Positions 37,479-61,171 of a stretch of 64,000 nt of DNA are shown here, piece by piece. Numbering within the stretch: the first letter of the stretch is position 1; each line of letters starts with the position of its first letter. The position numbers and the translations under genes are program-made. The stretch is from positions 1-64,000 of the forward strand of contig DAHUYF010000074.1 in assembly GCA_027315365.1 (NCBI GenBank), read 5' to 3'. The notes under the pieces are model-generated. The model did not search any database, had not been told where the DNA came from, and saw only the letters and a list, made by a program, of their open reading frames with translations. This DNA comes from Rhodospirillales bacterium (GTDB taxonomy: Bacteria; Pseudomonadota; Alphaproteobacteria; ATCC43930; CGMCC-115725).

Positions 37479-37519
37479 TGCGTCAGCGGGCGAAGCGAGG
37501 GTCAGCACCGAAGGGAACG

Positions 37520-38722
37520 ATGATCGAGCGAGCAGGTCGAGGGCGGCTGGCCGGCGCGGCCGCCGCCGCACTGGCGGTCGCGCTGGCGCTGCCGGCGGCG
37601 GCACAGACGGTCAAGGTCGGCGTCATCCTGACCTATTCCGGCGCCCAGGCGTCGCTCGGCGACCAGGTCGACAAGGGCATCGACCTCTACGTCAAGGAGC
37701 ACGCCCAGGACCTGCCGCCGGGCGTGACGGTGAGCCTGGTCAAGCGCGACGACACCTTCAACGCCGACGTCGCCAAGCGGCTGGCGCAGGAGCTGGTCAC
37801 CCGCGAGCACGTCAACATCCTGGCCGGCGTCATCGGCACGCCCGCGGCCAACGCCATCGCGCCGCTCGCCACCGCGGCCAAGGTGCCGTTCGTGGTGATG
37901 AACGCCGCCGGGGTGACGACGACGCGGCTGTCGCCCTATGTGGCGCGCGTCTCGTTCACCCATTGGCAGCTGTCGCTGCCGCTGGGGCGGTGGGCGGCGC
38001 AGCATCTGGGCAAGCGCGCCGCGACCGCGGTCAGCGACTTCGCGCCGGGCTATGACGGCGAGGGCGGCTTCAGCAAGGGCTTCACCGATGCCGGCGGCAC
38101 CATCGTCGGCGCGATCCGCATGCCGATCCTGACGCTCGATTTCGCGCCCTTCTTCGAGCGCGTCAAGGCGCTGCATCCCGATGTGCTCTACGTCTTCATT
38201 CCCGCCGGCCAGGAGGCGACGGCGGTGATGAAGGCCTATGCCGATGTCGGCCTCAAGGCCGCCGGGGTCAAGCTGGTAGGGCCGCAGGACATCGTCACCG
38301 ACGAGGAGCTGCCGAACATGGGCGACGCGCCGGAAGGCGTGATCACCACCGGCAACTACTCGCCGGCGGCGCGACGGCCGCAGAACCTGGCATTTCTCGC
38401 CGCCTGGCACCGCGCCTATGGCGACAAGGCGGTGGCCAATTTCATGTCGGTGGCGGGCTGGGACGGAATGGCGGCGATCTACAGCGTGATCAAAGAGACC
38501 GGCGGCAAATTCGACGGCGACCGGGCGATGGCCATCCTCCGGGGCTGGACGGACAAGGACAGCCCGCGCGGCCCGATCATGATCGATCCCGAGACTCGCG
38601 ACATCGTACAAAACGTCTATATTCGCCGCACCGAGAGGCTCGACGGCCATCTTGCCAACGTCGAGTTCGAGACGATCGAGCAGGTCAAAGATCCTTGGAA
38701 AGAGCTGAATCCGCCGAAATAG
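37520..38722 (+). CDS. ABC transporter substrate-binding protein 2 (paralogue of the preceding)
   Basis: The 400-residue protein has a signal peptide (AAAAALAVALALPAAAQ) and the same fold as its neighbour (VKVGVILTYSGAQASLGDQVDKG). Long stretches align without gaps, including RLAQELVTREHVN, SPYVARVSFT, and the C-terminal DPWKELNPPK. It therefore arose by tandem duplication. Differences lie in the putative ligand-facing segment (VIGTPAANAI here, VVWSPNALAI in paralogue 1). AAGGGA precedes the start. Substrate is unknown. Confidence 0.93.
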   Translation: MIERAGRGRLAGAAAAALAVALALPAAAQTVKVGVILTYSGAQASLGDQVDKGIDLYVKEHAQDLPPGVTVSLVKRDDTFNADVAKRLAQELVTREHVNILAGVIGTPAANAIAPLATAAKVPFVVMNAAGVTTTRLSPYVARVSFTHWQLSLPLGRWAAQHLGKRAATAVSDFAPGYDGEGGFSKGFTDAGGTIVGAIRMPILTLDFAPFFERVKALHPDVLYVFIPAGQEATAVMKAYADVGLKAAGVKLVGPQDIVTDEELPNMGDAPEGVITTGNYSPAARRPQNLAFLAAWHRAYGDKAVANFMSVAGWDGMAAIYSVIKETGGKFDGDRAMAILRGWTDKDSPRGPIMIDPETRDIVQNVYIRRTERLDGHLANVEFETIEQVKDPWKELNPPK

Positions 38723-38741
38723 CCCGGCCAGGAGGCGCGGG

Positions 38742-39602
38742 GTGAGCGCCGCCCTCAGCATCGCCTTTCACGGCGTCGCCTATGCGATGGTGCTCTACCT
38801 CATCTCGGTCGGGCTCTCCGTCACCATGGGGCTGATGGGCTTCGTCAACCTCGCGCATGGCGTCTTCGCCGCCGCGGGCGGCTATGTCATGACCCGGTTG
38901 ATGAACGGCCACGGCGTGCCCTTCCCGCTTGCCGTCGCGGCCGCCTTCGTCGTGGTCGGCGCCGCCAGCATGGTGGTCGAGCGGCTGCTCTATCGCCGGC
39001 TCTATGGCGCCGACGAGCTGTCGCAGGTGCTGATGTCGGTCGGCCTCATTTTCATGTCGGTGGCCGGCGCCAAGTTCCTGTGGGGGCCGCTCGCCCAGCC
39101 GATGACGCCGCCCGACTATCTCAGCGGCCAGATCGATCTCGGATTCCGCGCCTTCCCCGCCTATCGCAGCTTCCTCATCGTCGCCGGCGCGGTGCTGGTG
39201 ACGTTGCTCTGGCTCGGGCTCGAGCGCACCCGCTTCGGCGCGCGCATCCGCGCCGCAGTCGACAACCGCCGCATGGCGCAGTCGATCGGCATCAACACCA
39301 CCCTGCTCTTTACCTGGACCTTCGCGCTGGGCAGCGGGCTGGCGGCGCTGGGCGGCGCGCTCGGTGCCGAGATCCTGGCGATCGACCCGGGCTACGCGCT
39401 CGAGCACCTCATCTACTTCCTCATCGTCGTCGCCGTCGGCGGCCTCGGCAGCATCCGCGGACCGTTCTTCGCGGCGCTGCTGGTCGGCGTCACCGATACC
39501 GGGTTCAAATATCTGCTGCCGGAGTTCGGCGCCTTCTTCATCTATGCCTTGACGCTTGGCCTGCTGCTGTGGCGGCCGCAGGGCCTGTTCGGGCGCGCAT
39601 GA
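38742..39602 (+). CDS. livH: Branched-chain amino acid ABC permease, LivH type
   Basis: The 286-residue membrane protein has about eight hydrophobic segments and the LivH pattern: VTMGLMGFVNLAHGVFAAAGGY at the start, and LGSIRGPFFAALLVG near the C-terminus. It starts at GTG 38742 with GGAGG upstream at good spacing. Its stop overlaps the LivM start (ATGA). Confidence 0.93.
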   Translation: MSAALSIAFHGVAYAMVLYLISVGLSVTMGLMGFVNLAHGVFAAAGGYVMTRLMNGHGVPFPLAVAAAFVVVGAASMVVERLLYRRLYGADELSQVLMSVGLIFMSVAGAKFLWGPLAQPMTPPDYLSGQIDLGFRAFPAYRSFLIVAGAVLVTLLWLGLERTRFGARIRAAVDNRRMAQSIGINTTLLFTWTFALGSGLAALGGALGAEILAIDPGYALEHLIYFLIVVAVGGLGSIRGPFFAALLVGVTDTGFKYLLPEFGAFFIYALTLGLLLWRPQGLFGRA

Positions 39603-40591
39603 CGAGCGAGACCGCCGCGCCGCTTGCCGTCGAGGCGCTGGTGCGCGGGCACCGGCTGCGCCTCGTCGAGATCGCGCCGTGGCTGATCGGCGGGCTCGCC
39701 TATTTCCTCTTCCCCGACTATCTCGCGCTCGGCGCACAGATCCTGATCGGCATCATCTTCTCGCTGTCGCTCGATCTCATCCTGGGTTATGCCGGGATCG
39801 TCACCCTGGGCCAAGCGGCATTCTTCGGCGCCGGCGCCTATACCGCGGGGCTGCTGGCGGCGCATGGCTGGGGCGAACCGCTGAGCGCGCTGGTCGCCGC
39901 CGGCGCGGTGGCGGCAATCCTGGGATTGATCAGCGGCGCGATCATCCTGCGCACGCGCGGCCTCACCCTGCTGATGCTGACCCTGATGATCTCGTTCATG
40001 CTGCAGGAGGCGGCGAACAAGGCGGGCTCGATCACCGGCGGCGCCGACGGGCTGCAGGGCATGGCGGTCTGGCCGGTGCTGGGCGTGTTCCATTTCGACC
40101 TCTATGGCCGCACCGCCTATCTCTATTGCCTGGCCGTGCTGTTCCTGGCCTGGCTGGCAGCGCGGCGCATCGTCCATTCGCCGTTCGGCCGATCGCTGAC
40201 CGGCATCCGCGAGAACGAGGCGCGCATGCACGCCATCGGCTCGCCGGTCTTCGGCCGCCGCCTGGTGATCTACACCATCGCCGCCGCCTTCGCCGGCGTC
40301 GCCGGCGCGCTGCTGGCGCAAACCACGCAGTTCGTGGCGCTGGAGGTGCTGAGCTTCGAGCGTTCGGGCGCCGGGCTGATCATGCTGATCATCGGCGGCG
40401 TCGGCCGGCTCTACGGCCCGTTCATCGGCGTGCCGCTCTACATGATCGCGCAGGACCGCTTCGCCCAGGCCGATCCCGTCTATTGGGACTTCTGGATCGG
40501 CCTGCTGCTGATCCTCGTCGTCGTCTTCGCGCGCGGCGGCGTGCTGGGATTGGCCGACCAGCTCCGGCGCAGGCTGAGGCGGACGCGATGA
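39599..40591 (+). CDS. livM: Branched-chain amino acid ABC permease, LivM type
   Basis: The 330-residue protein has about nine membrane segments and LivM signatures: LDLILGYAGIVTLGQAAFFGAGAYTAG and RRLVIYTIAAAFAGVAGALLAQTTQF, plus SGAGLIMLIIGGVGRLYGPFIG. With LivH it forms the heterodimeric channel. It is coupled by four-base overlaps to genes on both sides. Confidence 0.93.
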   Translation: MTSETAAPLAVEALVRGHRLRLVEIAPWLIGGLAYFLFPDYLALGAQILIGIIFSLSLDLILGYAGIVTLGQAAFFGAGAYTAGLLAAHGWGEPLSALVAAGAVAAILGLISGAIILRTRGLTLLMLTLMISFMLQEAANKAGSITGGADGLQGMAVWPVLGVFHFDLYGRTAYLYCLAVLFLAWLAARRIVHSPFGRSLTGIRENEARMHAIGSPVFGRRLVIYTIAAAFAGVAGALLAQTTQFVALEVLSFERSGAGLIMLIIGGVGRLYGPFIGVPLYMIAQDRFAQADPVYWDFWIGLLLILVVVFARGGVLGLADQLRRRLRRTR

Positions 40592-41340
40592 GCGCCGCGC
40601 TCGAGACCACCGGCCTCTGCAAGAATTTCGGCGCGCTGGCGGTGGCCAGCGCCATCGACTTCCGCCTCGAGCGCGGCGCGCGCCACGCGCTGATCGGCCC
40701 GAACGGCGCCGGCAAGACCACCTTCATCAATCTCGTCACCGGCGCGCTCCGCCCGAGCGCCGGGCGCATCCTGCTCGACGGCGGCGACGTCACCGCGCTG
40801 CCGCAGGCGCAGCGGGTCAAGCGCGGCCTCGCCCGCACCTTCCAGATCAACACGCTGTTCCGCGGCTTGAGCGTGCTCGAGAATGTCTGCATGGCGATCA
40901 GCGAGCGGCTCGGCGTCGCCGGCGACATCCATCGCCCGGCGGGCTCGCGCCGCGAGGTCATCGACCAGGCCTATGCCGCGCTCGAGCGCCTGGGCATCGC
41001 CGACGACGCGCCGCGGCTGGTGCGCGAGCTGCCCTATGGCCGCCAGCGCCTGGTCGAACTGGCGGTGGCGCTGGGGCTCGAACCCAAGGTGCTGCTGCTC
41101 GACGAGCCGGCGGCGGGCGTGCCCTCGACCGAGAGCGGCATCATCGTCGAGGTCATCGAGAGCCTGCCGCAGGACATCGCGCTGCTCATCATCGAGCACG
41201 ACATGGACCTGGTCTTCCGCCTGGCGCGGCGCATCACCGTGCTGGTGCAGGGTGCGATCCTGGTCGAAGGCACGCCGCAGGAGATCGCCGCCGACCCGCG
41301 GGTGCGCGAGGTCTATCTCGGCGAGCACGTCAGCCCATGA
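40588..41340 (+). CDS. livG: Branched-chain amino acid ABC ATPase, LivG type
   Basis: The 250-residue ATPase has Walker A GPNGAGKTT and Walker B VLLLDEPAAGV. The H-loop is IIEHDMDLVF. The ABC signature is LPYGRQRLVELA, a variant of LSxGQ. LivG forms one half of the nucleotide-binding dimer. Both ends overlap neighbours by four bases. Confidence 0.94.
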   Translation: MSAALETTGLCKNFGALAVASAIDFRLERGARHALIGPNGAGKTTFINLVTGALRPSAGRILLDGGDVTALPQAQRVKRGLARTFQINTLFRGLSVLENVCMAISERLGVAGDIHRPAGSRREVIDQAYAALERLGIADDAPRLVRELPYGRQRLVELAVALGLEPKVLLLDEPAAGVPSTESGIIVEVIESLPQDIALLIIEHDMDLVFRLARRITVLVQGAILVEGTPQEIAADPRVREVYLGEHVSP

Positions 41341-42056
41341 GCGGCCGCGGCATCACCCTCGACGGCGTGCGCGCCGGCTACGGCGAGACGGTCGTGCTCG
41401 AAGGCGTGTCGCTGGAGCTGCCGGCCAAGGGCACGCTCGCACTGCTCGGACGCAACGGCGTCGGCAAGACCACCCTGCTCGCCACCATCATGGGCCACAC
41501 CACGCTGCATGGCGGCACGATCGCGTTCGACGGGCAGTCGATCGGCGGCATGGCACCGCATCGGCGCGCCCGGCTCGGCCTCGGCTGGGTGCCGCAGGAG
41601 CGCGACATCTTCCGCTCGCTGACGGTCGAGGAGAACCTCGCCGTGGCCGAGCGGCCGGGCCGCTGGACCATGGCGCGGGTCTACGATCTCTTCCCGAAGC
41701 TCGCCGAGCGCCGCCGCCATTACGGCAACGAGCTGTCCGGCGGCGAGCAGCAGATGCTGGCGATCGGCCGAGCGCTGATGGGCAATCCCGCGGTGCTGCT
41801 GATGGACGAGCCGATGGAAGGCCTGGCGCCGGTGATCGTCGACGTCGTGCTGAAGGGCATCGAGCGGCTGAAACGCGAGGACGACCTCGCCATCCTGCTG
41901 GTCGAGCAGCATGCGCGCCTCGCGCTGGGCGCGACCGAGCGCGCAGTGGTGCTCGACCGCGGCAAGGTCGTGCATGCCGGCGCCAGCAGCGACCTCCTCC
42001 GGGCGCCGGAGCGGCTCGCCGCGCTGATGGGGGTCGAGCGCCGCCCGATGGTCTGA
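41337..42056 (+). CDS. livF: Branched-chain amino acid ABC ATPase, LivF type
   Basis: The 239-residue ATPase has Walker A GRNGVGKTT, a canonical signature LSGGEQQMLAIGRAL, Walker B VLLMDEPMEGLAP and LVEQHARLAL. It completes the first importer. It ends 12 bases before the convergent TPR-oxygenase gene. Confidence 0.95.
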   Translation: MSGRGITLDGVRAGYGETVVLEGVSLELPAKGTLALLGRNGVGKTTLLATIMGHTTLHGGTIAFDGQSIGGMAPHRRARLGLGWVPQERDIFRSLTVEENLAVAERPGRWTMARVYDLFPKLAERRRHYGNELSGGEQQMLAIGRALMGNPAVLLMDEPMEGLAPVIVDVVLKGIERLKREDDLAILLVEQHARLALGATERAVVLDRGKVVHAGASSDLLRAPERLAALMGVERRPMV

Positions 42057-45790: not shown

Positions 45791-47026
45791 ATGAAGCACA
45801 TGCTCGCCATCCTCGCCGCGGCCATGCTCGCCGCCGCCGGTCCCGCGCGCGCCGCCGACACCATCAAGCTCGGCGCGCTCTATCCGCTGACCGGCAATTC
45901 CGCGCCCGCCGGGCAGGCGGCCAAGGCGGCGATCGCCGTGGCGGTCGACATCGTCAACACGGCGCATCCCGAGTTCAAGGGCCTGCCGCTCGCCGACACC
46001 GCCGGCCTGCCCAATCTCGGCGGCGCCAAGATCGAGGTGATCGACGCCGACCATCAGGGCGACCCTTCGGTGGGACAGCAGCAGGCGCTGCGGCTCATCA
46101 CCCGCGAGCATGTGGCGGCGCTGCTCGGCACCTATCAATCCTCGGTCGCGCTGACGGCGACGGCGGTGGCGGAGCGCTACGGCATTCCCTTCGTCATCGG
46201 CGACAGCGTCGCCGCGAACATCACCCAGCGCGGCTTCAAATGGACCTTCCGCGTAACGCCGATCGCCGGCGATTTCGCCGTCAGCTACGTCGACTTCCTG
46301 ACGCAGATGAAGCGGTCGGGCAGGAAGGTGGACAGCATCGCGGTGCTCAACGAGAACACCGATTACGGCACCTCGATCGGCGGCAGCATCGTCGAGGCGG
46401 CGCAAAAGGCCGGATACCAGGTGATGCGGATCGTCTACAACGCCAAATCCACCGACGTTTCGGCGCAGGTGCTGCAACTCAAGGACAAGAACCCCGACGT
46501 GGCGATCTTCGTCGGCTACACCGCCGACGAGATCCTCTACATGAAGACGCTGAAAGAGCTCGACTACAAGCCGGCGATGATCATCGGCGACGATGCCGGC
46601 TTCTCCGACCCGTCCTTCATTCCCGCCGTGGGCGACATATCTCAGGGGGTGCTCGACCGCAGCGCGTGGGACGCCGGCAAGCCGGGCAGCGTCACCTACC
46701 GCATCAACGAGATGTACAAGGCGCGGACCGGCCGCGACATGGACGATACCAGCGGCCGCTGGATGCAGGCCTTCTTCGTCCTGGCCGATGCAATCAACCG
46801 CGCCGGCTCGACCGATCCGGCCAAGATCCAGAAGGCGCTGCGGGAGACCGACCTGAAGCCGGCGCAGCTGATGATGGGCTATCGCGGCGTCAAATTCGAC
46901 GCCAGCGGCCAGAACCTGCTGGCCTCCACCTATCTCATCCAGCTCCAGGGCAAGTCCTACAAGGCGGTCTGGCCCGAGGCGCGCGCCACTGCGACGCTGC
47001 AATGGCCGATGACCGGCTGGAAGTAG
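45791..47026 (+). CDS. ABC transporter substrate-binding protein (second Liv system)
   Basis: The 411-residue protein has a signal peptide (MLAILAAAMLAAAGPARA) and a type I binding fold starting with DTIKLGALYPLTGNSAPAGQAAKAA. It has NENTDYGTSIGGSIVEAAQKAGY and a long insertion not seen in the first system's receptors. It is the single receptor for the livHMGF set downstream. The 208-base upstream gap holds no promoter I trust. Confidence 0.93.
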   Translation: MKHMLAILAAAMLAAAGPARAADTIKLGALYPLTGNSAPAGQAAKAAIAVAVDIVNTAHPEFKGLPLADTAGLPNLGGAKIEVIDADHQGDPSVGQQQALRLITREHVAALLGTYQSSVALTATAVAERYGIPFVIGDSVAANITQRGFKWTFRVTPIAGDFAVSYVDFLTQMKRSGRKVDSIAVLNENTDYGTSIGGSIVEAAQKAGYQVMRIVYNAKSTDVSAQVLQLKDKNPDVAIFVGYTADEILYMKTLKELDYKPAMIIGDDAGFSDPSFIPAVGDISQGVLDRSAWDAGKPGSVTYRINEMYKARTGRDMDDTSGRWMQAFFVLADAINRAGSTDPAKIQKALRETDLKPAQLMMGYRGVKFDASGQNLLASTYLIQLQGKSYKAVWPEARATATLQWPMTGWK

Positions 47027-47054
47027 CCGCGGGAACCGCCCGGCGGCCGGCGCC

Positions 47055-47912
47055 ATGATCCTGCTGCAGGTCATCGTCGACGGGCTTCTGCTGGGTGCGG
47101 TCTACGCGCTGTTCTCGTCGGGCCTGACGCTGATCTGGGGCATGATGAACTTCATCAACTTCGCCCATGGCGAATTCGTCATGCTCGGCATGTACGTGGC
47201 GCTGCTGGCGGTAACCTGGATCGGCGGCGGGCCGGTCGTGTTCGGGCTCGCGGCGGCGCTCGGGCTTTTCCTGCTCGGCGTCGTCATCTACTTCGCGCTG
47301 ATCCGCGCCGTCATGCGCGGGCCGATGCTGGCGCAGATTCTCTCCACCTTCGGCCTCGCGCTGTTGCTGCGCTACGCCGCCTTCTGGGTCTTCTCGCCTA
47401 ACTTCGTCACGCTGCCGCGCAGCGTGCTCAGCGGCACGCTGCGCCTCGACGGCATCCTGCTCAGCGTGCCGCGGCTCGCCGCCGGGCTGGCGGCGGCGGC
47501 GCTCACCCTCGGCATGCATCTGCTGCTGACCCGCACGGCGCTGGGAAGCCGGCTTCTCGCCGTCGCCGAGGATCGCGACGCGGCGACGCTGATGGGCATC
47601 CGCCCCGACCGCATGCAGGCGTTTGCCTGGGGCCTCGCCGCGGCGAGCGCCGGGATCGCCGGCGCGCTGATGGCGATCTCGTTTCCGTTTTCGCCGGCGG
47701 TCGGCGAGACCTTCGCGCTCACCGCCTTCGTCGTGGTCACGCTGGGAGGCTTCGGCAGCGTCCCCGGCGCGATGCTGGCCGGGCTGCTGGTCGGCCTGAT
47801 CCAAGGGCTCTCCGCCTATTGGCTGGGCCCGGTCTACAAGGACGTGGTCGTCTACGGGCTGTTCGTGGCATTGCTGTGGCTGCGGCCGCAGGGGCTGCTG
47901 GGGGCGGCATGA
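47055..47912 (+). CDS. livH: Branched-chain amino acid ABC permease, LivH type (second system)
   Basis: The 285-residue membrane protein has LLGAVYALFSSGLTLIWGMMNFINFAHGEFVMLGMY, the LivH hallmark, and a C-terminal VTLGGFGSVPGAMLAGLLVGLIQGL. It lies 28 bases after the receptor gene. It is coupled to LivM by a four-base overlap. Confidence 0.94.
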   Translation: MILLQVIVDGLLLGAVYALFSSGLTLIWGMMNFINFAHGEFVMLGMYVALLAVTWIGGGPVVFGLAAALGLFLLGVVIYFALIRAVMRGPMLAQILSTFGLALLLRYAAFWVFSPNFVTLPRSVLSGTLRLDGILLSVPRLAAGLAAAALTLGMHLLLTRTALGSRLLAVAEDRDAATLMGIRPDRMQAFAWGLAAASAGIAGALMAISFPFSPAVGETFALTAFVVVTLGGFGSVPGAMLAGLLVGLIQGLSAYWLGPVYKDVVVYGLFVALLWLRPQGLLGAA

Positions 47913-48895
47913 CGCGCCGGGGCTGGGTTGTGCTCGCGGCGGCGCTGCTGGCCTATCCCTGGGCCGTCGCCGGCAGCGACGGCGCCGCCTTCCTGCAGGA
48001 TATGGGCGCGCTGGTGCTGCTGGCGGCGATCGGCGCCTCGGCCTGGAACATCCTCGGCGGCTATGCCGGGCAGATCTCGGTGGGCCATGCCATGTTCTTC
48101 GGCGCCGGTGCCTATGTGCCGCTGCTCGTCTACCAGCATTGGCAGGCGCCGCCGCTGCTCGGCGTGCCGCTCGGCGTCGCCGCCAGCCTGGGCATCGCGC
48201 TGATCGTCGGACATCCGACCTTCCGCTTGGCCGGCCACTATTTCAGCATGGCGACGATCGCCGTCGCCGAGCTGGTGCGCATCATGGTCGGAAACTGGGA
48301 CTTCCTCGGCGCCGCGATCGGATTGCAGGGGCCCGCGACCGGGCGCGGCTGGTACGATCTCACCTTCCGCAGCGCCGTGCCCTATTACTACATTTTTCTC
48401 GCGGTGCTGGCGCTGCTGCTGGCGGTCACCGCGCAGATGCAGCGCAGCCGCCTCGGCTACTACCTGCATGCCATCGGCGCCGGCGAGCGCGCGGCGCGCA
48501 GCCTCGGCGTGCCGGTGCGGCGCTACAAGCTCTACGCGCTGCTGCTGAGCGCCGGCTTCACCTCTCTGGCGGGATCGCTCTATGCGCTCAAGACCGGCTT
48601 CGTCGATCCCGACAGCGGGCTCGGCATCCTGGTGTCGGTGCAGATGATCATCACCGCGGCGCTGGGCGGCGCCGGCACGCTGCTGGGGCCGCTGCTGGGC
48701 GCGGCGATCCTGGTGCCGCTGCAGACCGCGACCAACACCTGGTTCGGCGGCGGCGGTTCGGGCCTCACCTACGTCATCTATGGCGGCGTCATCGTGCTGA
48801 TCGCGCGCTTCGAGCCCGGCGGCCTGCTGGAGCTGTGGCATCGCCGGGCGGCGGCGCGGCTGGCGCGCCGCGGCAGGGTTCGTCATGCTGCTTAG
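47909..48895 (+). CDS. livM: Branched-chain amino acid ABC permease, LivM type (second system)
   Basis: The 328-residue protein has SAWNILGGYAGQISVGHAMFFGAGAYVP, GIGAGERAARSLGVPVRRYKLYALLLSAGFTSLAG-like signature and LGGAGTLLGPLLGAAIL. These are LivM features. It has about ten hydrophobic segments. Its 3' end overlaps livG by 11 bases. Confidence 0.93.
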   Translation: MTRRGWVVLAAALLAYPWAVAGSDGAAFLQDMGALVLLAAIGASAWNILGGYAGQISVGHAMFFGAGAYVPLLVYQHWQAPPLLGVPLGVAASLGIALIVGHPTFRLAGHYFSMATIAVAELVRIMVGNWDFLGAAIGLQGPATGRGWYDLTFRSAVPYYYIFLAVLALLLAVTAQMQRSRLGYYLHAIGAGERAARSLGVPVRRYKLYALLLSAGFTSLAGSLYALKTGFVDPDSGLGILVSVQMIITAALGGAGTLLGPLLGAAILVPLQTATNTWFGGGGSGLTYVIYGGVIVLIARFEPGGLLELWHRRAAARLARRGRVRHAA

Positions 48896-49625
48896 CGCCG
48901 AGAAGGTCGCCAAGCATTTCGGCAGCTTCCGCGCCGTCGCGGGCGCCGATGTAGCGGTCGCCGCGGGCGAGATCGTCGGCCTCATCGGCCCCAACGGCGC
49001 CGGCAAATCCACCTTCTTCAATTGCATCGCCGGCGACGTCGCGCCCACCTCCGGCCGCATCCTGTTCGACGGCGTCGACGTCACTGGCGCACCGGCCGAG
49101 ACCCGCGCGCGGCTCGGCATCGGCCGTACCTTCCAGGTGCCGACCACCTTCGAGGACATGACCATCCTCGACAACGTCATGGTTGGCGCCTTCCTGCGCC
49201 ATCCGCGGCGCGGCGAGGCGCGCGACCGCGCGCTCGAGGTGATCGAGATGACCGGCCTCAAGGAGCAGGCCGGCCAGCGCGCGCGCAGCCTCGGCACGCC
49301 CGGCCGCAAGCGGCTCGAGATCGCGCGCGTGCTCGCCGCGCGGCCGCGGCTGATGCTGCTCGACGAGGCGCTCGCCGGCCTGACGCCGAGCGAGGTGCGG
49401 CGCGCGATCGAGCTGGTGCGCGCCATTCATGCCCAGGGCATCACGCTGGTCATCGTCGAGCACATCATGGAGGTGATCCTGACGCTCGCCGAGCGCGTGT
49501 TGGTGTTCAACCAGGGCCACGTCATTGCCAGCGGCACGCCGCGGCAGGTGGTCGACGATCCCGCGGTGATCGAGGCCTATCTCGGACGCGGGCATGGGCG
49601 TCCGCGGCGAGCGAGGACCCCGTGA
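48885..49625 (+). CDS. livG: Branched-chain amino acid ABC ATPase, LivG type (second system)
   Basis: The 246-residue ATPase has Walker A GPNGAGKST, Walker B LMLLDEALAGL and IVEHIMEVIL. The signature is LGTPGRKRLEIARVLA, which departs from LSGGQ; the Walker B is DEALAGL rather than DEPxxGL. The second site's catalytic set may therefore be asymmetric. It overlaps livF by four bases (GTGA). Confidence 0.92.
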   Translation: MLLSAEKVAKHFGSFRAVAGADVAVAAGEIVGLIGPNGAGKSTFFNCIAGDVAPTSGRILFDGVDVTGAPAETRARLGIGRTFQVPTTFEDMTILDNVMVGAFLRHPRRGEARDRALEVIEMTGLKEQAGQRARSLGTPGRKRLEIARVLAARPRLMLLDEALAGLTPSEVRRAIELVRAIHAQGITLVIVEHIMEVILTLAERVLVFNQGHVIASGTPRQVVDDPAVIEAYLGRGHGRPRRARTP

Positions 49626-50353
49626 CGCGGCGCATGACGCTGCTCTCGGTCAGGCATCTCGAAGTGCGCTACGGCGACCTTGTCGGCGTCGCCGACGTGT
49701 CGCTCGACGTGCCGGACGGCGCGGTCGTAGCGCTGCTCGGCTCGAACGGCGCGGGCAAGACGACGACGCTCAACGCCATCGCCGGGCTGGTACGGACCAG
49801 CGGCGGCAGCATCCGCTGGCGGGAGGACGCGATCACCAACCTGCCGGCGTTCGCCATCGTGCGCCGGGGCCTCGCGCTGTCGCCGGAGGGGTGGCGCCTC
49901 TTCGTCGGCCAGACGGTCGAACAGAATCTGCGGCTGGGCGCCACGACGCTCGCCGAGACGCGGCGGATACCGGCGCTGCTGGACCGCGTCTTCGCCATCT
50001 TCCCGCGGCTGGCCGAGCGCCGGCGGCAGCGCGCCGGCACCTTGTCGGGCGGAGAACGGCAGATGCTGGCGATGGGACGCGCCCTGATGAGCGATCCCAA
50101 GCTGCTGATGCTGGACGAACCTTCGCTCGGCCTGGCGCCGGCGATCGTCGACGCGCTCTACGACACCCTGCGGCGGCTCCACGGCGAGGGACTGACCCTG
50201 CTGCTCGCCGAGCAATCGGTGCCGCTGGCGCTCGAGATCGCCGATTACGGCTATGTGCTTCAGACCGGGCGCACCGTGCTCGACGGCATGGCCCAGGCGC
50301 TGGCCGAGGACCCGCAGGTGCAGCGCATCTATCTCGGCGTTAACCCTCCCTAA
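49622..50353 (+). CDS. livF: Branched-chain amino acid ABC ATPase, LivF type (second system)
   Basis: The 243-residue ATPase has Walker A GSNGAGKTT, signature LSGGERQMLAMGRAL and Walker B LLMLDEPSLGLAP. I chose GTG 49622, which overlaps the upstream stop; ATG 49634 is an alternative four codons later. It ends the second importer operon; the next gene starts 164 bases later. Confidence 0.93.
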   Translation: MTRRMTLLSVRHLEVRYGDLVGVADVSLDVPDGAVVALLGSNGAGKTTTLNAIAGLVRTSGGSIRWREDAITNLPAFAIVRRGLALSPEGWRLFVGQTVEQNLRLGATTLAETRRIPALLDRVFAIFPRLAERRRQRAGTLSGGERQMLAMGRALMSDPKLLMLDEPSLGLAPAIVDALYDTLRRLHGEGLTLLLAEQSVPLALEIADYGYVLQTGRTVLDGMAQALAEDPQVQRIYLGVNPP

Positions 50354-52399: not shown

Positions 52400-53314
52400 A
52401 TGTTCGCCGCGCCGCCCGTGATCGAGACGACGGTCTTCGCCCGCGTTCCGGAGCGGCTGTCGCGGGCGTCCGGCCGATCGCCCTGGGTCGATATGCTGCG
52501 CGAGGGCGCGCCGACCGCCTCGTTCCTCGAAGGTCCGTCCTTCGACCGCGAAGGCAATCTGTGGGTGACCGACATCCCGTGGGGACGGCTCTTCAAGATC
52601 ACGCCCGAGGGCGCGCTGAGCCTCGCCTTCGAATATGACGGCGAGCCCAACGGCCTCAAATTCCACCGCGACGGCCGGGCCTTCATCACCGACCACAAGC
52701 ATGGCCTCATGGTGTTCGATCCCAAGGGCGGCAGGATCGAGCCTTGCCTGGAGCGGGGACGGTTCGAGCGCTTCAAGGGCGTCAACGATCTCGTCTTCGC
52801 CTCGAACGGCGATCTCTACTTCACCGACCAGGGCATGACCGGACTGCACGACCCGACCGGCCGGGTCTGGCGTCTCGAGGCGGGCGGCCGGCTGGAGTGC
52901 CTGCTCGACAACGTTCCGAGCCCCAACGGGCTCGCGCTGAACAAGGCCGAGACCGTCCTCTATCTCTGCGTCACCCGCAACAACGCCATCTGGCGCGTGC
53001 CGCTGCTCAAGGCGGGCGGCGTCGGCCGGGTCGGCATCTTCATCCAGATGTCGGGGGGCACCGGGCCCGACGGCATGGCGATGGACGAAGACGACAACCT
53101 CGCCATCTGCCATGTGGGGTTCGGCGCGGTCTGGCTTTTCAGCGCGCTGGGCGAGCCGCTCTATCGCATCAAATCCTGCGCCGGACTCGCCACGACCAAC
53201 TGCGCCTATGGCGGCGCGGAGCGGAAGTCGCTGTTCATCACGGAATCGGCGAGCGGCAGCGTGCTGCGCGCGGAGCTGCCGGTGGCGGGACGGCGGATGT
53301 ATTCGCATCTCTAG
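52400..53314 (+). CDS. SMP-30/gluconolactonase/LRE family protein
   Basis: The 304-residue protein has the six-bladed propeller pattern with the divalent metal site: FLEGPSFDREGNLWVTD near residue 45 (Glu ligand), FKGVNDLVFASNGDLYFTD and GPDGMAMDEDDNLAI. It should be a sugar-lactone hydrolase. No signal peptide is seen. GGGGGAGA precedes the ATG at 52400. Substrate is unknown. Confidence 0.87.
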   Translation: MFAAPPVIETTVFARVPERLSRASGRSPWVDMLREGAPTASFLEGPSFDREGNLWVTDIPWGRLFKITPEGALSLAFEYDGEPNGLKFHRDGRAFITDHKHGLMVFDPKGGRIEPCLERGRFERFKGVNDLVFASNGDLYFTDQGMTGLHDPTGRVWRLEAGGRLECLLDNVPSPNGLALNKAETVLYLCVTRNNAIWRVPLLKAGGVGRVGIFIQMSGGTGPDGMAMDEDDNLAICHVGFGAVWLFSALGEPLYRIKSCAGLATTNCAYGGAERKSLFITESASGSVLRAELPVAGRRMYSHL

Positions 53315-55749: not shown

Positions 55750-56385
55750 CTAGTCGCGCGCCACGGCGCGCGCGAGATGCGCCGCGATCAGCGCCTCGGC
55801 GGCCTCTGCGACCGCACCGGCGGGGCCGCCGGCGCCGAAGGTCTGCGCGCTCGAATAGGCGCCTTCGAACAGCAGCACGAGCTGATCGGCGAGCTGCGCC
55901 GGACGCCGCGCGTCGAGGGCGCGGGCGAGATCGAGCAGGCGGCGGCGCAGTTCGTGCTTGTGCCGCTCGGCGACCTGGCGCGCGGGATGAGCCGGCTCGG
56001 GAAACTCGGTAGCGGCGTTGGTAAATGGGCAGCCGCGCCAATCCGCGCGCGTTGCGCGCCGGGCCAGGGCGCGAAACAGCGCGCGCGACTGTTCGCGTGG
56101 ATCGCCCCGATGGCGCGCCGCCACGTCGTCCCACCGGGCCCAATAGCGCGCGTCATGCGCCTCGAGACATGCCGCGACAAGCTCGTCCTTGGAGGGGAAG
56201 CTGCGATAGAGGCTCATCTTGGCGACGTCGGCGGAGGCCACGATCTCGTCGATGCCGACCGAGCGGATGCCCCGGCGATAGAACAGATCACCCGCCGCCG
56301 CGAGCAGCCGCTCGCGCGCCGAGGGCGCCAGCGCACCTTCCGCCAGTTCGCGCGTTTTCGCCGGTGCCGCCTTCCGCCGCCGCAT
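55750..56385 (-). CDS. TetR family transcriptional regulator
   Basis: The 211-residue protein has a TetR N-terminal DNA-binding domain: ARERLLAAAGDLFYRRGIRSVGIDEIVASADVAKMSLYRSFPSKDELVAACL. The C-terminal half should bind a small molecule. Two ATGs are possible (56391 and 56385); the second sits six bases after GAGG and is chosen. It diverges from the MFS gene across a palindromic promoter. It probably represses that promoter and is released by a substrate of the operon. Confidence 0.92.
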   Translation of the reverse strand: MRRRKAAPAKTRELAEGALAPSARERLLAAAGDLFYRRGIRSVGIDEIVASADVAKMSLYRSFPSKDELVAACLEAHDARYWARWDDVAARHRGDPREQSRALFRALARRATRADWRGCPFTNAATEFPEPAHPARQVAERHKHELRRRLLDLARALDARRPAQLADQLVLLFEGAYSSAQTFGAGGPAGAVAEAAEALIAAHLARAVARD

Positions 56386-56406
56386 GGCCATCCTCGTCAG
56401 CCGGGC

Positions 56407-56440
56407 TTTACACGATAGAGACCGACCGGTATCGTGTAAA
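56407..56440. promoter_or_regulatory. Symmetric overlapping divergent promoter (tetR / MFS operon)
   Basis: TTTACACGATA (56407-56417) is repeated inverted as TATCGTGTAAA (56430-56440), with 12 bases between. On each strand this gives the same promoter: TTTACA, 17 bases, TATCGT. One 34-base element thus drives both directions. The central 12 bases hold AGACCGACCGG, related to the operator 6 bases downstream. Confidence 0.65.
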
Positions 56441-56445
56441 GAGGT

Positions 56446-56455
56446 AGACCGGTCT
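56446..56455. promoter_or_regulatory. TetR-type operator
   Basis: AGACCGGTCT is a perfect 10-bp palindrome, close to the predicted start of the MFS transcript. Palindromes of this kind are known operators of TetR regulators (the E. coli NemR box has TAGACC/GGTCTA halves). A related sequence AGACCGACCGGT lies inside the promoter at about 56419-56430. Confidence 0.6.
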
Positions 56456-56474
56456 GTCTCACGGAGGCATGAGG

Positions 56475-57755
56475 ATGAGAACGCTCGCTCAGATGCTGGC
56501 GGGGCGCGTGCATTATGCCTGGGTCGTTGCCGGCGTCATCTTCCTCGTCCTGCTCGCCGCGGTCGGCGTGCGCGCCACGCCGAGCGTGCTGATCGTGCCG
56601 CTCGAGCGCGCCTTCGGCTGGAGCCGCGGCACCATCTCCTTCGCGATCTCGCTCAACATCGTGCTCTACGGCCTGGTCGGACCGTTCGCCGCGGCGCTGA
56701 TGCAGCAGCTCGGCATTCGCCGCACCGTGCTGCTGGCGCTGACGCTGATCAGCGTCAGCGTCGCATCGAGCACCTGGATGACCGCGCCCTGGCAGCTGGT
56801 GCTGAGCTGGGGGCTCGCGGTCGGGCTGGGCACCGGCGTCACCGCGCTGGTGCTCGGCGCTACCATCGTCAACCGCTGGTTCGCCAAGCAGCAGGGGCTG
56901 GTGATGGGCATCATCACCGCCAGCACCGCCACCGGCCAGCTCGTGTTCCTGCCGATGCTGGCGGCGGTCGCCGAAAGTGCCGGCTGGCAATGGGTGGCGT
57001 GGATCGCGGCGCTGGCCATCGCCGCGATGATCCCCGCCGTGGCCCTGCTCGTGCCGGAGAGTCCGGCGGCGATCGGCCTTGCCCCTTACGGCGCGGCGGC
57101 GGACGACATCGCCGCCGCGACGGCGCGCGCCAACCCGATCGGGGTGGCGATGGCGACGCTCGGCCGCGCATCGAGATCGGGTGGCTTCTGGCTGCTCTTC
57201 GCCAGTTTCTTCGTGTGCGGCGCCAGCACCAACGGACTGATCGGGACCCACCTCATCTCCTACTGCGTCGACCACGGCATTCCGGAAGTGCAGGGCGCGA
57301 GCCTGCTGGCGGCGATGGGCATCTTCGATCTCGTCGGCACCACCGCCTCGGGCTGGCTCTCCGACCGCTTCGACAGCCGCCGCCTGCTGTTCTGGTATTA
57401 CGGCCTGCGCGGGCTGGCGCTGATCTATCTGCCCTATTCCGGCTTCTCGCTCTACGGCCTGTCGATCTTCGCCGTCTTCTACGGCCTCGACTGGATCGCC
57501 ACCGTGCCACCGACGGTGCGGCTCACCACCGAGCTCTTCGGCAAGGCGGATGCGCCGATCATCTTCGGCTGGCTGCTGGCGGGCCATCAGCTCGGCGCCG
57601 GCGTCACCGCCTTCGAGGCGGGGGTGCTGCGCTCGGTGCTCGGCGCCTATCTCGTGCCGGTGCTGATCTCAGGCGGGCTCTGCCTGATCGCGGCGCTGCT
57701 GGTGCTGCGCATCGGCCGCGGGCGCGCCGGCGGGATTGCGCCGGTTCCGGCCTGA
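56475..57755 (+). CDS. MFS transporter (monocarboxylate / organic anion type)
   Basis: The 426-residue protein has twelve likely membrane helices. It begins with HYAWVVAGVIFLVLLAAVGVRATPSVLIVPLERAFGWSRGTIS, the pattern of monocarboxylate/oxalate-formate MFS carriers. The MFS loop 8-9 motif is DLVGTTASGWLSDRFDSRRLL. GGAGG at 56463-56467 is one base before ATG 56469 but seven before ATG 56475, so the latter is the start. It leads the operon with a dehydratase and split decarboxylase, so its substrate is probably an acidic metabolite. Confidence 0.9.
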   Translation: MRTLAQMLAGRVHYAWVVAGVIFLVLLAAVGVRATPSVLIVPLERAFGWSRGTISFAISLNIVLYGLVGPFAAALMQQLGIRRTVLLALTLISVSVASSTWMTAPWQLVLSWGLAVGLGTGVTALVLGATIVNRWFAKQQGLVMGIITASTATGQLVFLPMLAAVAESAGWQWVAWIAALAIAAMIPAVALLVPESPAAIGLAPYGAAADDIAAATARANPIGVAMATLGRASRSGGFWLLFASFFVCGASTNGLIGTHLISYCVDHGIPEVQGASLLAAMGIFDLVGTTASGWLSDRFDSRRLLFWYYGLRGLALIYLPYSGFSLYGLSIFAVFYGLDWIATVPPTVRLTTELFGKADAPIIFGWLLAGHQLGAGVTAFEAGVLRSVLGAYLVPVLISGGLCLIAALLVLRIGRGRAGGIAPVPA

Positions 57756-57821
57756 GACGCCGGTTGCCCGACGCAGCGCGCTCCTCCTAGGATCAACCTC
57801 CCGGAGGAGAGAACCGCGTCC

Positions 57822-58946
57822 ATGACCCGCATCGCCAGCATCCGCGCCCGTGCCGTCTGCGTACCGCTCGCCGCGGCGACCGCATTTTCGAGCCGCTTGG
57901 TGAGCGAGCGGCACTATGCGCTGGTCGAGGTCGAAGGCGATGACGGCGTCACCGGCATCGGCTTCTGCTACGCCGGCCATGCCGGCGGCGCGCTGATCAC
58001 CAAGGCGATCCACGACCTGCTGGCGAAGAAGCTCCTCGGCCAGGACGCGCATCGCGTCGAAGGCCTCTGGGAGGAGATGTATCAGGAGGCGCTGCTCGCC
58101 GGCCGCCTCGGCGCGGTGCTACGCGCCATCAGTGCGCTCGACATCGCGCTCTGGGACCGCAACGCGCGCGCGGCCAGCCTGCCGCTTTACAAATACCTCG
58201 GCGCCGCGGTCACCGACCGCGTGCCGGCCTATGCCAGCGGCGGCTACTATCTCGACGGCAAGACGCCAGAGATGCTGGGCGACGAGGTGGCGGGCTATGT
58301 CCGCCAGGGCTTTGGCGCGGTCAAGATCAAGGTCGGGCGTGGACGCGATCTCGGGCTCGAGCGCGCGCGCATCGAGGCGGCGCGCGCCGCCATCGGCGAG
58401 GACGTACTGCTGATGCTCGACGCCAACAATGCCTGGGCCGACCTGCCGACGGCGCTGCGCTTCATGCGCGCCTATGAGCCGTCGGCCCCCTATTGGATCG
58501 AGGAGCCTTTCGGCCCGGACGACATCGACAATCATGCGCGCCTGGCGCGGCTGACACCGGTGCCGGTGGCGACCGGCGAGATCGAAGGCGGCCGCTGGCG
58601 CTTCAAGGAACTGCTCGACAAAGGGGCGGCGATGATCCTGCAGACCGACGCCTGCGTCTGCGGCGGCATCAGCGAGTTCCGCCGCATCGCCGCCACGGCG
58701 GCGAGCTACGGCGTGACGCTCTGCCCGCACTGGTTCCACGACGTTCATGCGCATCTGGTGGCGGCGACGCCCAATGCGCGCTATGTCGAGCTCTTCCCCG
58801 ACGACAAGGTGCTCAATTTCCGCCGCCTCGTCACACCTCAGCTCGCCTTCGCCAACGGCATGATCGAGCTGCCGGACCGGCCGGGCCTCGGCTGCGACTT
58901 CCTGCCCGAGGCGGTCGAGCGCCATGCGGTGGAGCCCTGGGCGTGA
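57822..58946 (+). CDS. Enolase-superfamily acid-sugar dehydratase-like enzyme (mandelate racemase group)
   Basis: The 374-residue protein has the MR/MLE residue set: KIK at 168-170, metal ligands D200 (MLDANNAW), E227 (IEEPF) and E253 (ATGEIEGG), D276 in QTDACVCGG and H303 in CPHWFHDVH. These bases abstract a proton next to a carboxylate. The enzyme probably dehydrates or epimerises a hydroxy acid. GGAGGAG precedes the ATG. It overlaps the next gene by four bases (GTGA), so the two are coupled. Confidence 0.9.
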   Translation: MTRIASIRARAVCVPLAAATAFSSRLVSERHYALVEVEGDDGVTGIGFCYAGHAGGALITKAIHDLLAKKLLGQDAHRVEGLWEEMYQEALLAGRLGAVLRAISALDIALWDRNARAASLPLYKYLGAAVTDRVPAYASGGYYLDGKTPEMLGDEVAGYVRQGFGAVKIKVGRGRDLGLERARIEAARAAIGEDVLLMLDANNAWADLPTALRFMRAYEPSAPYWIEEPFGPDDIDNHARLARLTPVPVATGEIEGGRWRFKELLDKGAAMILQTDACVCGGISEFRRIAATAASYGVTLCPHWFHDVHAHLVAATPNARYVELFPDDKVLNFRRLVTPQLAFANGMIELPDRPGLGCDFLPEAVERHAVEPWA

Positions 58947-59470
58947 GCGCCGCGCCCGTCGCCGACTGGCCCCGCGACATCCACGCCGCGCTGGCGGCGG
59001 CCGAAATCCGCCAGGTGGCCTATGTCCCCGATGCCGGCCATGCGCGGCTGATCACGCTCTGCGCCGGCGATGGCGCGATGCACATGGTGCCGCTCACCAG
59101 CGAGCAGGAGGGCGTCGGCCTCGCCGCCGGCGCCTGGCTCGGCGGCCAGCGCTCGGTACTGCTGATGCAATCGAGCGGCGTCGGCAACTGCATCAACGCG
59201 CTGACGCTGATCGAGACCTGCCGCTTGCCGCTGCTGATGCTGATCACCATGCGCGGCGAGTTCGGCGAGTTCAATCCGTGGCAGGTGCCGATGGGCCGTG
59301 CCACGCCGCAGGCGCTGCAGCTCGCCGACGTCCTGGTGCAGCGCGCGAGCCGCGCGGAAGAGGTCGGCGCGGTCGTCGCCGGCGCAGCGCGGCTCGCCTT
59401 CGCCAGCTACCGCGCCGTCGCGGTGCTGCTGTCGCAGCAGCTCATCGGCGCCAAATCCTTCCAGAAATGA
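58943..59470 (+). CDS. ThDP decarboxylase alpha subunit (PYR domain; sulfopyruvate/phosphonopyruvate decarboxylase-like)
   Basis: The 175-residue protein is a lone pyrimidine-binding domain. It has LTSEQEGVGLAAGAWLGGQRSVLLMQSSGVGNCINAL and ITMRGEFGEFNPWQVPMGRAT, close to the alpha subunit (ComD) of sulfopyruvate decarboxylase. The catalytic Glu is E54 or E56. It starts at GTG 58943 overlapping the dehydratase. It needs the next gene's product to form the active site. Confidence 0.88.
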   Translation: MSAAPVADWPRDIHAALAAAEIRQVAYVPDAGHARLITLCAGDGAMHMVPLTSEQEGVGLAAGAWLGGQRSVLLMQSSGVGNCINALTLIETCRLPLLMLITMRGEFGEFNPWQVPMGRATPQALQLADVLVQRASRAEEVGAVVAGAARLAFASYRAVAVLLSQQLIGAKSFQK

Positions 59471-59477
59471 GCCCGCC

Positions 59478-60074
59478 ATGAGCCGCGCCAACACGCTCGA
59501 CCGCCGCGCCGTCGTCCGTTCGCTGCTCGCCCGGCGCGGCGGGCTGCTGCTGGTGACCGGGCTGGGCGCGCCGGCCTGGGACGCGACTGCGGCCGGCGAC
59601 AGCCCGCTTACCTTCCCGCTCTGGGGCGCGATGGGCAGCGCGGCGATGATCGGCCTCGGCCTGGCGCTGGCGCAGCCCGAGCGCGCGGTGTTGGTGCTCA
59701 CCGGCGACGGCGAGATGCTGATGGGGCTGGGCAGCCTCGCCACCATCGGCGTGCAGCGCCCGGCCAATCTCGCGCTGGCGGTGCTCGATAACGAGCGCTA
59801 CGGCGAGACCGGCATGCAGGAGACGCACACCGCCCACGGCGTCGACCTCGCCGCCATCGCCGCCGGCTGCGGCTTTGCGCAGAGCGAGACGATCCGCGAC
59901 ATGGCCGGGATCGAGGCGCTCGGCGCGCGGCTCGACGCGCGGCAGGGCCCGCTCTTCGCGCAGGTGAAGATCGCCGCCGACACGCCGCCGCTGGCGCTGC
60001 CGCCGCGCGACGGCGCGCTCCTCAAGAACCGGTTCCGCGCGGCACTGCTGGGGCCGCAGGCCGATCTGGCGTAG
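59478..60074 (+). CDS. ThDP decarboxylase beta subunit (PP domain)
   Basis: The 198-residue protein is a lone pyrophosphate-binding domain with the ThDP-Mg motif GDGEMLMG (GDG at 76-78) and LDNERYGETG (N105), 27 residues later. MGSAAMIGLGLALAQPERAVLVLTGDGE matches the beta subunit (ComE) of sulfopyruvate decarboxylase and phosphonopyruvate decarboxylase. It lies seven bases after the alpha subunit. The complete enzyme should decarboxylate a 2-keto acid to an aldehyde. Confidence 0.88.
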   Translation: MSRANTLDRRAVVRSLLARRGGLLLVTGLGAPAWDATAAGDSPLTFPLWGAMGSAAMIGLGLALAQPERAVLVLTGDGEMLMGLGSLATIGVQRPANLALAVLDNERYGETGMQETHTAHGVDLAAIAAGCGFAQSETIRDMAGIEALGARLDARQGPLFAQVKIAADTPPLALPPRDGALLKNRFRAALLGPQADLA

Positions 60075-60080
60075 GCTGAT

Positions 60081-61007
60081 CTACGCCACGGGATGGCGCG
60101 GCGGCTGTCCCGCCAGCACCTCGAGCACTTGCTCGACCACGAGCAGGCCGACGCGGTCGAGCGCCTCGGCGGTGGCGGCGCCGATATGCGGCGTGGCGAT
60201 GAAATTTGCGAGACGCAGCAGCGGGTGGTCGGGCGGCGGCGGCTCGGTGACGAAGACGTCGCTCGCCGCCGCCGCCGGCCGCCCGCGCTCGAGCGCTGCG
60301 GCCAGCGCCGCCTCGTCGACGATGCCGCCGCGCGCGGTGTTGATGAGGATGCTGCCGTCCGGCATCAGCGCCAGCTCGCGCGCGCCGATGAGGCCGCGCG
60401 TCGCGGCGGTGAGCGGCAGATGCAGGCTCAGCACGTCGCTGGCAGCGACGAGTTCGTCGATCGCGCCGGCCGGCGCCGCTCCGGCGGCGCGGATGGTCTC
60501 TGCCGGCAGCGCGGGATCGTAGGCCATCACCGGCGCGCGCAAGGCGCGGGCGAACAGGTCGGCGACACGGCGGCCGACTTGGCCGAAACCGGCGACCCCG
60601 AGGCGGCGGCCGGCCAGCTCTCGCCCGGCCGGCAAAGCCGCCTGCGCCGGCCGGCCGTCGCGCAGCGCCCGATCGGCGGCGACCAGATGCCGCGACGACG
60701 CCAGCGCCAGCGCCAGCACCAGCTCGGCCACACCGTCGGCATTGGCGCCCGGCGTGTTGACCACCGGGATGCCGCGGGCGCGGGCGGCGTCAAGCGCGAT
60801 ATTGTCGATGCCGACGCCGTGCTTGCCGATGACCTTGAGCCGTCGCGCACGGGCGATATCGGCGGCAGCGACCGGGCTGGTGCGGGTGATGATCGCATCG
60901 GCGCGCTCGGGCCAGGCGGACAGCGCGGGATCGCGCCAATCGACGACATCCGGACCGAGACGCGCCAAGGCGCGGGGGCTGATGGGATCAAGCACGAAAA
61001 CCGGCAC
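60081..61007 (-). CDS. D-2-hydroxyacid dehydrogenase
   Basis: The 308-residue protein has NAD-binding GVAGFGQVGRRVADL and the catalytic set Arg (NTARGGIVDE), Glu (FVTEPPPPDHPLL) and His (ATPHIGAAT). It reduces a 2-keto acid to a D-hydroxy acid, or oxidises in reverse. I chose GTG 61007 because GAGG lies seven bases before it and the family N-terminus (VPVFVLDPISPRALARL) follows. It converges on the decarboxylase operon with a six-base gap. Confidence 0.9.
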   Translation of the reverse strand: MPVFVLDPISPRALARLGPDVVDWRDPALSAWPERADAIITRTSPVAAADIARARRLKVIGKHGVGIDNIALDAARARGIPVVNTPGANADGVAELVLALALASSRHLVAADRALRDGRPAQAALPAGRELAGRRLGVAGFGQVGRRVADLFARALRAPVMAYDPALPAETIRAAGAAPAGAIDELVAASDVLSLHLPLTAATRGLIGARELALMPDGSILINTARGGIVDEAALAAALERGRPAAAASDVFVTEPPPPDHPLLRLANFIATPHIGAATAEALDRVGLLVVEQVLEVLAGQPPRHPVA

Positions 61008-61171
61008 GGAAGGACCTCGCTCGGCAGGAAGAGGGGCGCGCGCCACTTTCCCCCGTCATGATCCATTGCTCAAGCGCCACAGGCGACTATCATGCGCCCC
61101 ATGCAGGATCGTGCGATCCAAAACCCGATACCCTCAGACCGCACCAAGGGGCCGGTTCGCGGCCGGACGCC

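Follow-up and report, generated by a model that had tools for sequence, protein, structure and literature searches.

Closest described systems

The mandelate pathway of Pseudomonas putida, in which mandelate racemase, mandelate dehydrogenase and benzoylformate decarboxylase act in sequence, resembles the operon described here in combining an enolase-superfamily enzyme with a ThDP decarboxylase. It differs in having a racemase, a single-chain decarboxylase and an aromatic substrate.

The nonphosphorylative Routes I–III of sugar-acid degradation proceed through a lactonase and an acid-sugar dehydratase to a 2-oxo-3-deoxy sugar acid, whose fates are aldol cleavage, dehydration and dehydrogenation, and their genes are clustered with a carrier and a regulator (PMC6336799). 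The present locus appears to share this arrangement, but a putative ThDP decarboxylase occupies the place that an aldolase, dehydration or dehydrogenation of the intermediate takes in Routes I–III. In its predicted chemistry, by which a ThDP enzyme removes CO2 from a 2-oxo-3-deoxy sugar acid and leaves an aldehyde, it resembles the engineered 1,2,4-butanetriol branch (PMC7341569, PMC10644656), although that branch uses the borrowed single-chain enzymes MdlC and KivD, whereas a two-subunit enzyme of another family is encoded here in a natural operon. The keto-acid-decarboxylase branch of sugar acids has been called non-natural in a review (PMC7341569).

Two-subunit ThDP decarboxylases are considered rare (PMC12746152) and include ComDE (sulfopyruvate), RhiEF (phosphonopyruvate) and LumKL (quinoxaline) (PMC12746152, PMC12141560). 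The enzyme encoded here is likewise divided into two subunits, but these score below the ComDE and phosphonopyruvate decarboxylase cut-offs, and their genes accompany that of a predicted sugar-acid dehydratase. This dehydratase (hereafter ENO) resembles L-talarate/galactarate dehydratase (2pp0, 3cb3) in fold (TM about 0.91) and catalytic residues, but is about 33% identical and lies below the NCBIfam cut-off for that enzyme. In the literature searched, mostly without subscription papers, we found no description of an enolase-superfamily enzyme paired with a sulfopyruvate-type decarboxylase. Nor was a pathway with this exact gene set found there, in line with the original prediction, which knew of none.

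Locus organization

The window, a stretch of 64,000 nucleotides from a Rhodospirillales bacterium, carries all of the originally described genes, present and intact at 55750–61046, and a lactonase gene that had been missed:

52400–53314, + strand, SMP-30/gluconolactonase-family lactonase (Pfam SGL 140.7 bits)
55750–56391, − strand, TetR-family regulator (Pfam TetR_N 49.9 bits, TetR_C_13 28.4 bits)
56406–56460, both strands, putative divergent promoter/operator (motif pairs, inverted repeat, palindrome)
56475–57755, + strand, MFS carrier, monocarboxylate-porter-like (Pfam MFS_1 105.3 bits)
57822–58946, + strand, mandelate-racemase-group enzyme (ENO), predicted sugar-acid dehydratase (MR_MLE_C 216 bits)
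58943–59470, + strand, ThDP decarboxylase alpha half, pyrimidine-binding domain (GTG start; TIGR03845 120.9 bits)
59478–60074, + strand, ThDP decarboxylase beta half, pyrophosphate-binding domain (TPP_enzyme_C 54.6 bits; GDG motif intact)
60081–61046, − strand, D-2-hydroxyacid dehydrogenase, phosphoglycerate-dehydrogenase-like, judged to lie outside the unit (PGDH model 270.8 bits, cut-off 454)

The unit is the divergent tetR together with the four-gene operon MFS/ENO/ThDP-alpha/ThDP-beta, a narrower set than first proposed. The overlap between genes in that proposal is real: the ENO stop and the ThDP-alpha start share a GTGA at 58943–58946. The GTG start of ThDP-alpha is confirmed by an ATG at the same position in sister locus L003, and in sister locus L004 the alpha frame extends into the beta start; these two features support translational coupling. 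The MFS carrier scores 107.7 bits against the NCBIfam SfMCT L-lactate transporter model (cut-off 320), is 83% identical to its counterpart in L004, and starts at ATG 56475, the start conserved there.

Elsewhere in the window, a GarD/UxaA-family dehydratase gene is found at 615–2210 (− strand; TIGR03248 393.7 bits, cut-off 730.85), 55 kb from ENO, and genes of this family recur beside ENO orthologs in other genomes. Two branched-chain-amino-acid-type ABC transporter gene sets, judged from their translations, lie at 36330–42056 and 45791–50353 (+ strand).

Conservation of the unit

In L004, which belongs to a sister species, the order tetR/MFS/ENO/ThDP-alpha/ThDP-beta is retained, and ENO is found with both ThDP genes on the short contigs L003 and L005. 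This layout is not due to chance, since the full order is kept in one sister and the ENO/ThDP order in three. ENO and both ThDP genes are intact in the three sister loci, with dN/dS of 0.13–0.49 against the reference operon, indicating purifying selection. Among the best 80 ENO loci, none of the 77 outside the genus has this split ThDP pair beside ENO; among the loci examined the pairing is confined to one genus, where it was seen in a few genomes, all MAGs. The operon is real and lineage-specific. Outside the genus, the Candidimonas nitroreducens locus L034 has a distant split ThDP pair at 2207–3270 (32% and 44% identity), ∼7 kb from its ENO ortholog.

The D-2-hydroxyacid dehydrogenase, initially suggested as a pathway step that forms or uses the hydroxy acid, does not share this conservation. 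It is convergent with the operon on the opposite strand and is therefore not cotranscribed with it. In L004 it is 7 kb away, and in L003, where ENO and the ThDP genes are intact, it is a remnant with several frame breaks (2400–3120; a pseudogene or an assembly fault). A strong match is absent from the related genomes G021 and G022, and an ortholog is present in G020, a genome in which the ENO search gave no match better than 1e-60. On the basis of strand, lost synteny, decay in L003 and this occurrence in G020, we rejected it as a pathway gene.

The SMP-30/gluconolactonase is a better candidate partner, probably an upstream one: its gene precedes ENO in L004 and L093 as well, and relatives 58–59% identical are found near ENO in L046 and L076. 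In L093, which carries a second ENO allele of G021, the lactonase and protease genes come immediately before ENO, with no tetR/MFS between.

Regulation

A dedicated TetR switch, as proposed earlier, is supported by the divergent tetR, a conserved palindrome and an operator that occurs once in the genome. The tetR/MFS gap contains the pair TTTACA-N17-TATCGT on each strand, mirror-image and overlapping; such promoter-like pairs have a mean of 0.0 in shuffled sequence (2 matches against 0 expected). It also carries a 12-nt inverted repeat and the palindrome AGACCGGTCT. The L004 intergenic stretch is almost identical to this gap, the flanking coding sequence diverges more, and a TetR ortholog 75% identical lies at the same place. 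A TetR-autoregulated divergent operon is expected to have a conserved palindromic operator in the gap that separates it from tetR, as is the case here, and the TetR-family protein is probably a repressor of both the operon and its own gene, predicted to bind at the palindrome and to respond to a ligand. A search of the whole genome with the operator 14-mer, allowing at most one mismatch, returned this single occurrence and no further pathway genes, so the regulator looks local.

The enolase-superfamily enzyme

ENO belongs to the mandelate racemase group of the enolase superfamily by its sequence signatures: MR_MLE_N and MR_MLE_C are both over cut-off, and the KxK motif, the three metal-binding acids and the His/Asp pair are present. 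Residues K168/K170, D200, E227/E228, E253, D276, H303 and E323 are invariant across 37 aligned orthologs. The best NCBIfam model is L-talarate/galactarate dehydratase NF047820, at 245.6 bits (cut-off 500). The predicted structure (pLDDT 93) best matches the fold of L-talarate dehydratase 3cb3 (with L-glucarate), followed by a Bordetella enzyme with xylarate/lyxarate and by cycloisomerase structures.

The best 80 ENO loci (62–92% identity) come from many proteobacterial genera and a few MAGs of other phyla; orthologs outside the genus are 62–71% identical. Seventy-four of the 77 loci outside the genus were long enough for neighbour counts, which were made with labelled queries. Within 6 kb of ENO we found an IlvD/Edd dehydratase in 35 of the 74, GntR in 35, a DHDPS-family aldolase/dehydratase in 31, a GhrB-type reductase in 30, TctA in 18 and a GarD-type dehydratase in 16; FMN-type hydroxyacid dehydrogenases lie near 10 of the 74. 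As background, 40 loci around ThDP-alpha homologs were searched with the same queries, which gave 0/40. Annotated plasmid loci are consistent with a sugar-acid setting of the ENO orthologs, and the NCBIfam models leave aldonate and aldarate undivided among the neighbours.

Fold and gene neighbourhood point to ENO being a sugar-acid dehydratase, one that dehydrates rather than racemizes or cycloisomerizes its substrate. Of the earlier suggestion that a mandelate-racemase-group dehydratase yields a 2-keto acid, group membership is upheld by the residues and the nearest fold is that of a dehydratase, with dehydration itself a prediction.

The split ThDP enzyme

The adjacent genes for pyrimidine- and pyrophosphate-binding subunits and the GDG motif identify a putative two-subunit ThDP decarboxylase, and among decarboxylases of solved structure RhiEF (9iz3) scores best with both subunits. 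ThDP-beta also has weak homology to benzoylformate decarboxylase. The enzyme had been called ComDE-like, which is apt for the split halves and the general resemblance, but both subunits fall below the sulfopyruvate decarboxylase (ComDE) cut-offs: ThDP-alpha scores 120.9 bits against TIGR03845 (cut-off 147.95) and ThDP-beta 123.6 bits against TIGR03846 (cut-off 221.5) and 129.9 bits against PRK06163 (cut-off 240). Against phosphonopyruvate decarboxylase TIGR03297 (cut-off 312.5) the two subunits score 67.5 and 108.7 bits, so neither qualifies as that enzyme. Three related ThDP pairs likewise miss curated cut-offs. PDB “Pizza” matches of ThDP-alpha were set aside as repeat-protein artefacts.

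At E ≤ 1e-15, ThDP-alpha has homologs in 98 of 385 genomes from the class, and the closest ThDP homologs outside the genus (67–69% identical) are in other gene contexts. An aldehyde dehydrogenase lies within the locus in seven of nine annotated plasmid loci of the ThDP pair, as expected for an aldehyde-forming enzyme. The contexts are so varied that the substrate cannot be read from these homologs, and assignment from neighbouring genes was rejected, there being no constant partner in 40 loci and the gene calls being noisy. A paralogous ThDP-alpha, 52% identical, is encoded in the same genome (L144, G000:C163) near a Rieske oxygenase, an amidohydrolase and GntR. In one other genus (L126, L127, L134) the split pair is near phosphonate-type ABC transporter genes, the transporter substrate-binding protein in L127 being recognized by Pfam.

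Proposed pathway and alternatives

We predict that the MFS carrier brings in a sugar acid (aldonate or aldarate), which the nearby lactonase may free from a lactone form. ENO would dehydrate the acid to a 2-oxo-3-deoxy acid, from which the two-subunit ThDP enzyme would remove CO2 to give an aldehyde one carbon shorter, and TetR would leave the shared promoter in response to a pathway ligand. Gene order, overlaps, the conserved operator, the intact ENO catalytic residues and the family placement of both enzymes are read directly from the sequence; family and context suggest the chemistry. The more general part of the original prediction is supported: an operon for acid catabolism under a dedicated TetR switch, encoding a dehydratase that probably forms a 2-oxo acid and a ThDP decarboxylase of two subunits. 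We put at about even the chance that the operon, under TetR control, serves specifically for sugar acids and includes a decarboxylative branch. Against this count the ENO score, well under the talarate/galactarate cut-off, the small number of genomes, from one genus, that carry the pairing, the lack of an aldehyde dehydrogenase or reductase gene in the operon, and the varied contexts of the ThDP homologs, some of them beside a phosphonate-type ABC transporter.

Those contexts bear on an unlikely reading in which the ThDP pair and ENO share only an operon and act on unrelated compounds, for example if a general 2-oxo-acid decarboxylase had been recruited by chance. The ThDP-alpha homologs are widespread with no constant neighbour, and ENO in other genera works without the pair, but sister loci retain the overlapping frames, and a single operator serves the whole operon. 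Similarly unlikely is a mandelate-like route: racemization of a 2-hydroxy acid by ENO, then oxidation by a hydroxyacid dehydrogenase to a 2-oxo acid, which the split ThDP enzyme would decarboxylate. The KxK motif and the His/Asp pair, the two bases of the mandelate racemase site, are both retained in ENO, GhrB- and FMN-type hydroxyacid dehydrogenases recur near ENO orthologs, and ThDP-beta is distantly related to benzoylformate decarboxylase. The identical residues, however, also serve acid-sugar dehydratases of the mandelate racemase group, sugar-acid genes dominate the ENO neighbourhoods, mandelate racemase is a poorer match than talarate dehydratase in both fold and sequence, and the local dehydrogenase is of another subfamily without a conserved place.

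Quite unlikely is that ENO is a galactarolactone- or anhydrogalactonate-type cycloisomerase acting between the lactonase and the ThDP enzyme. Galactarolactone cycloisomerase 4hpn and the anhydrogalactonate cycloisomerases 5olc and 5xd9 are close folds, and a lactonase gene lies upstream of ENO here and near it in other genera; dehydratases nevertheless come first in the fold and NCBIfam rankings, and a cycloisomerase product would still need conversion to a 2-oxo acid before the ThDP step. We regard it as very unlikely that the operon serves organosulfonate or phosphonate use, with the ThDP pair decarboxylating sulfopyruvate or phosphonopyruvate and ENO taking a sulfonated or phosphonated acid as its substrate. 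ComDE and RhiEF are the best characterized relatives of the subunits, and the phosphonate-type transporter genes of the other genus fit such a role, but all subunit scores are under the curated cut-offs and ENO relatives lie in sugar-acid clusters. Profile searches of the genome (99.25% complete) gave best scores of 262.7 for Xsc (cut-off 676.4) and 106.8 for PEP mutase (cut-off 319.55), so neither marker of sulfonate or phosphonate catabolism was found above its cut-off, and a sulfonate/phosphonate route is not supported. Of the three substrate classes originally named, sulfonate, phosphonate and sugar acid, we favour the last because the ThDP subunits, Xsc and PEP mutase are all below cut-off and the ENO relatives occur in sugar-acid clusters.

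Within the preferred sugar-acid reading, our best guess for the ThDP substrate would be a dicarboxylic 2-oxo acid, because the ComDE and RhiEF substrates carry a second negative group and the nearest folds to ENO bind aldarates. It is possible, at somewhat less than even chances, that the operon represents a natural fourth sugar-acid route in which a dehydratase-made 2-oxo-3-deoxy acid is decarboxylated by a two-subunit ThDP enzyme. If so, the operon would be the natural counterpart of a branch so far described only as engineered. It would also provide, for the first time, a class of substrates on which to test a ThDP subunit family that has homologs in as many as one in four of the genomes sampled from the class.
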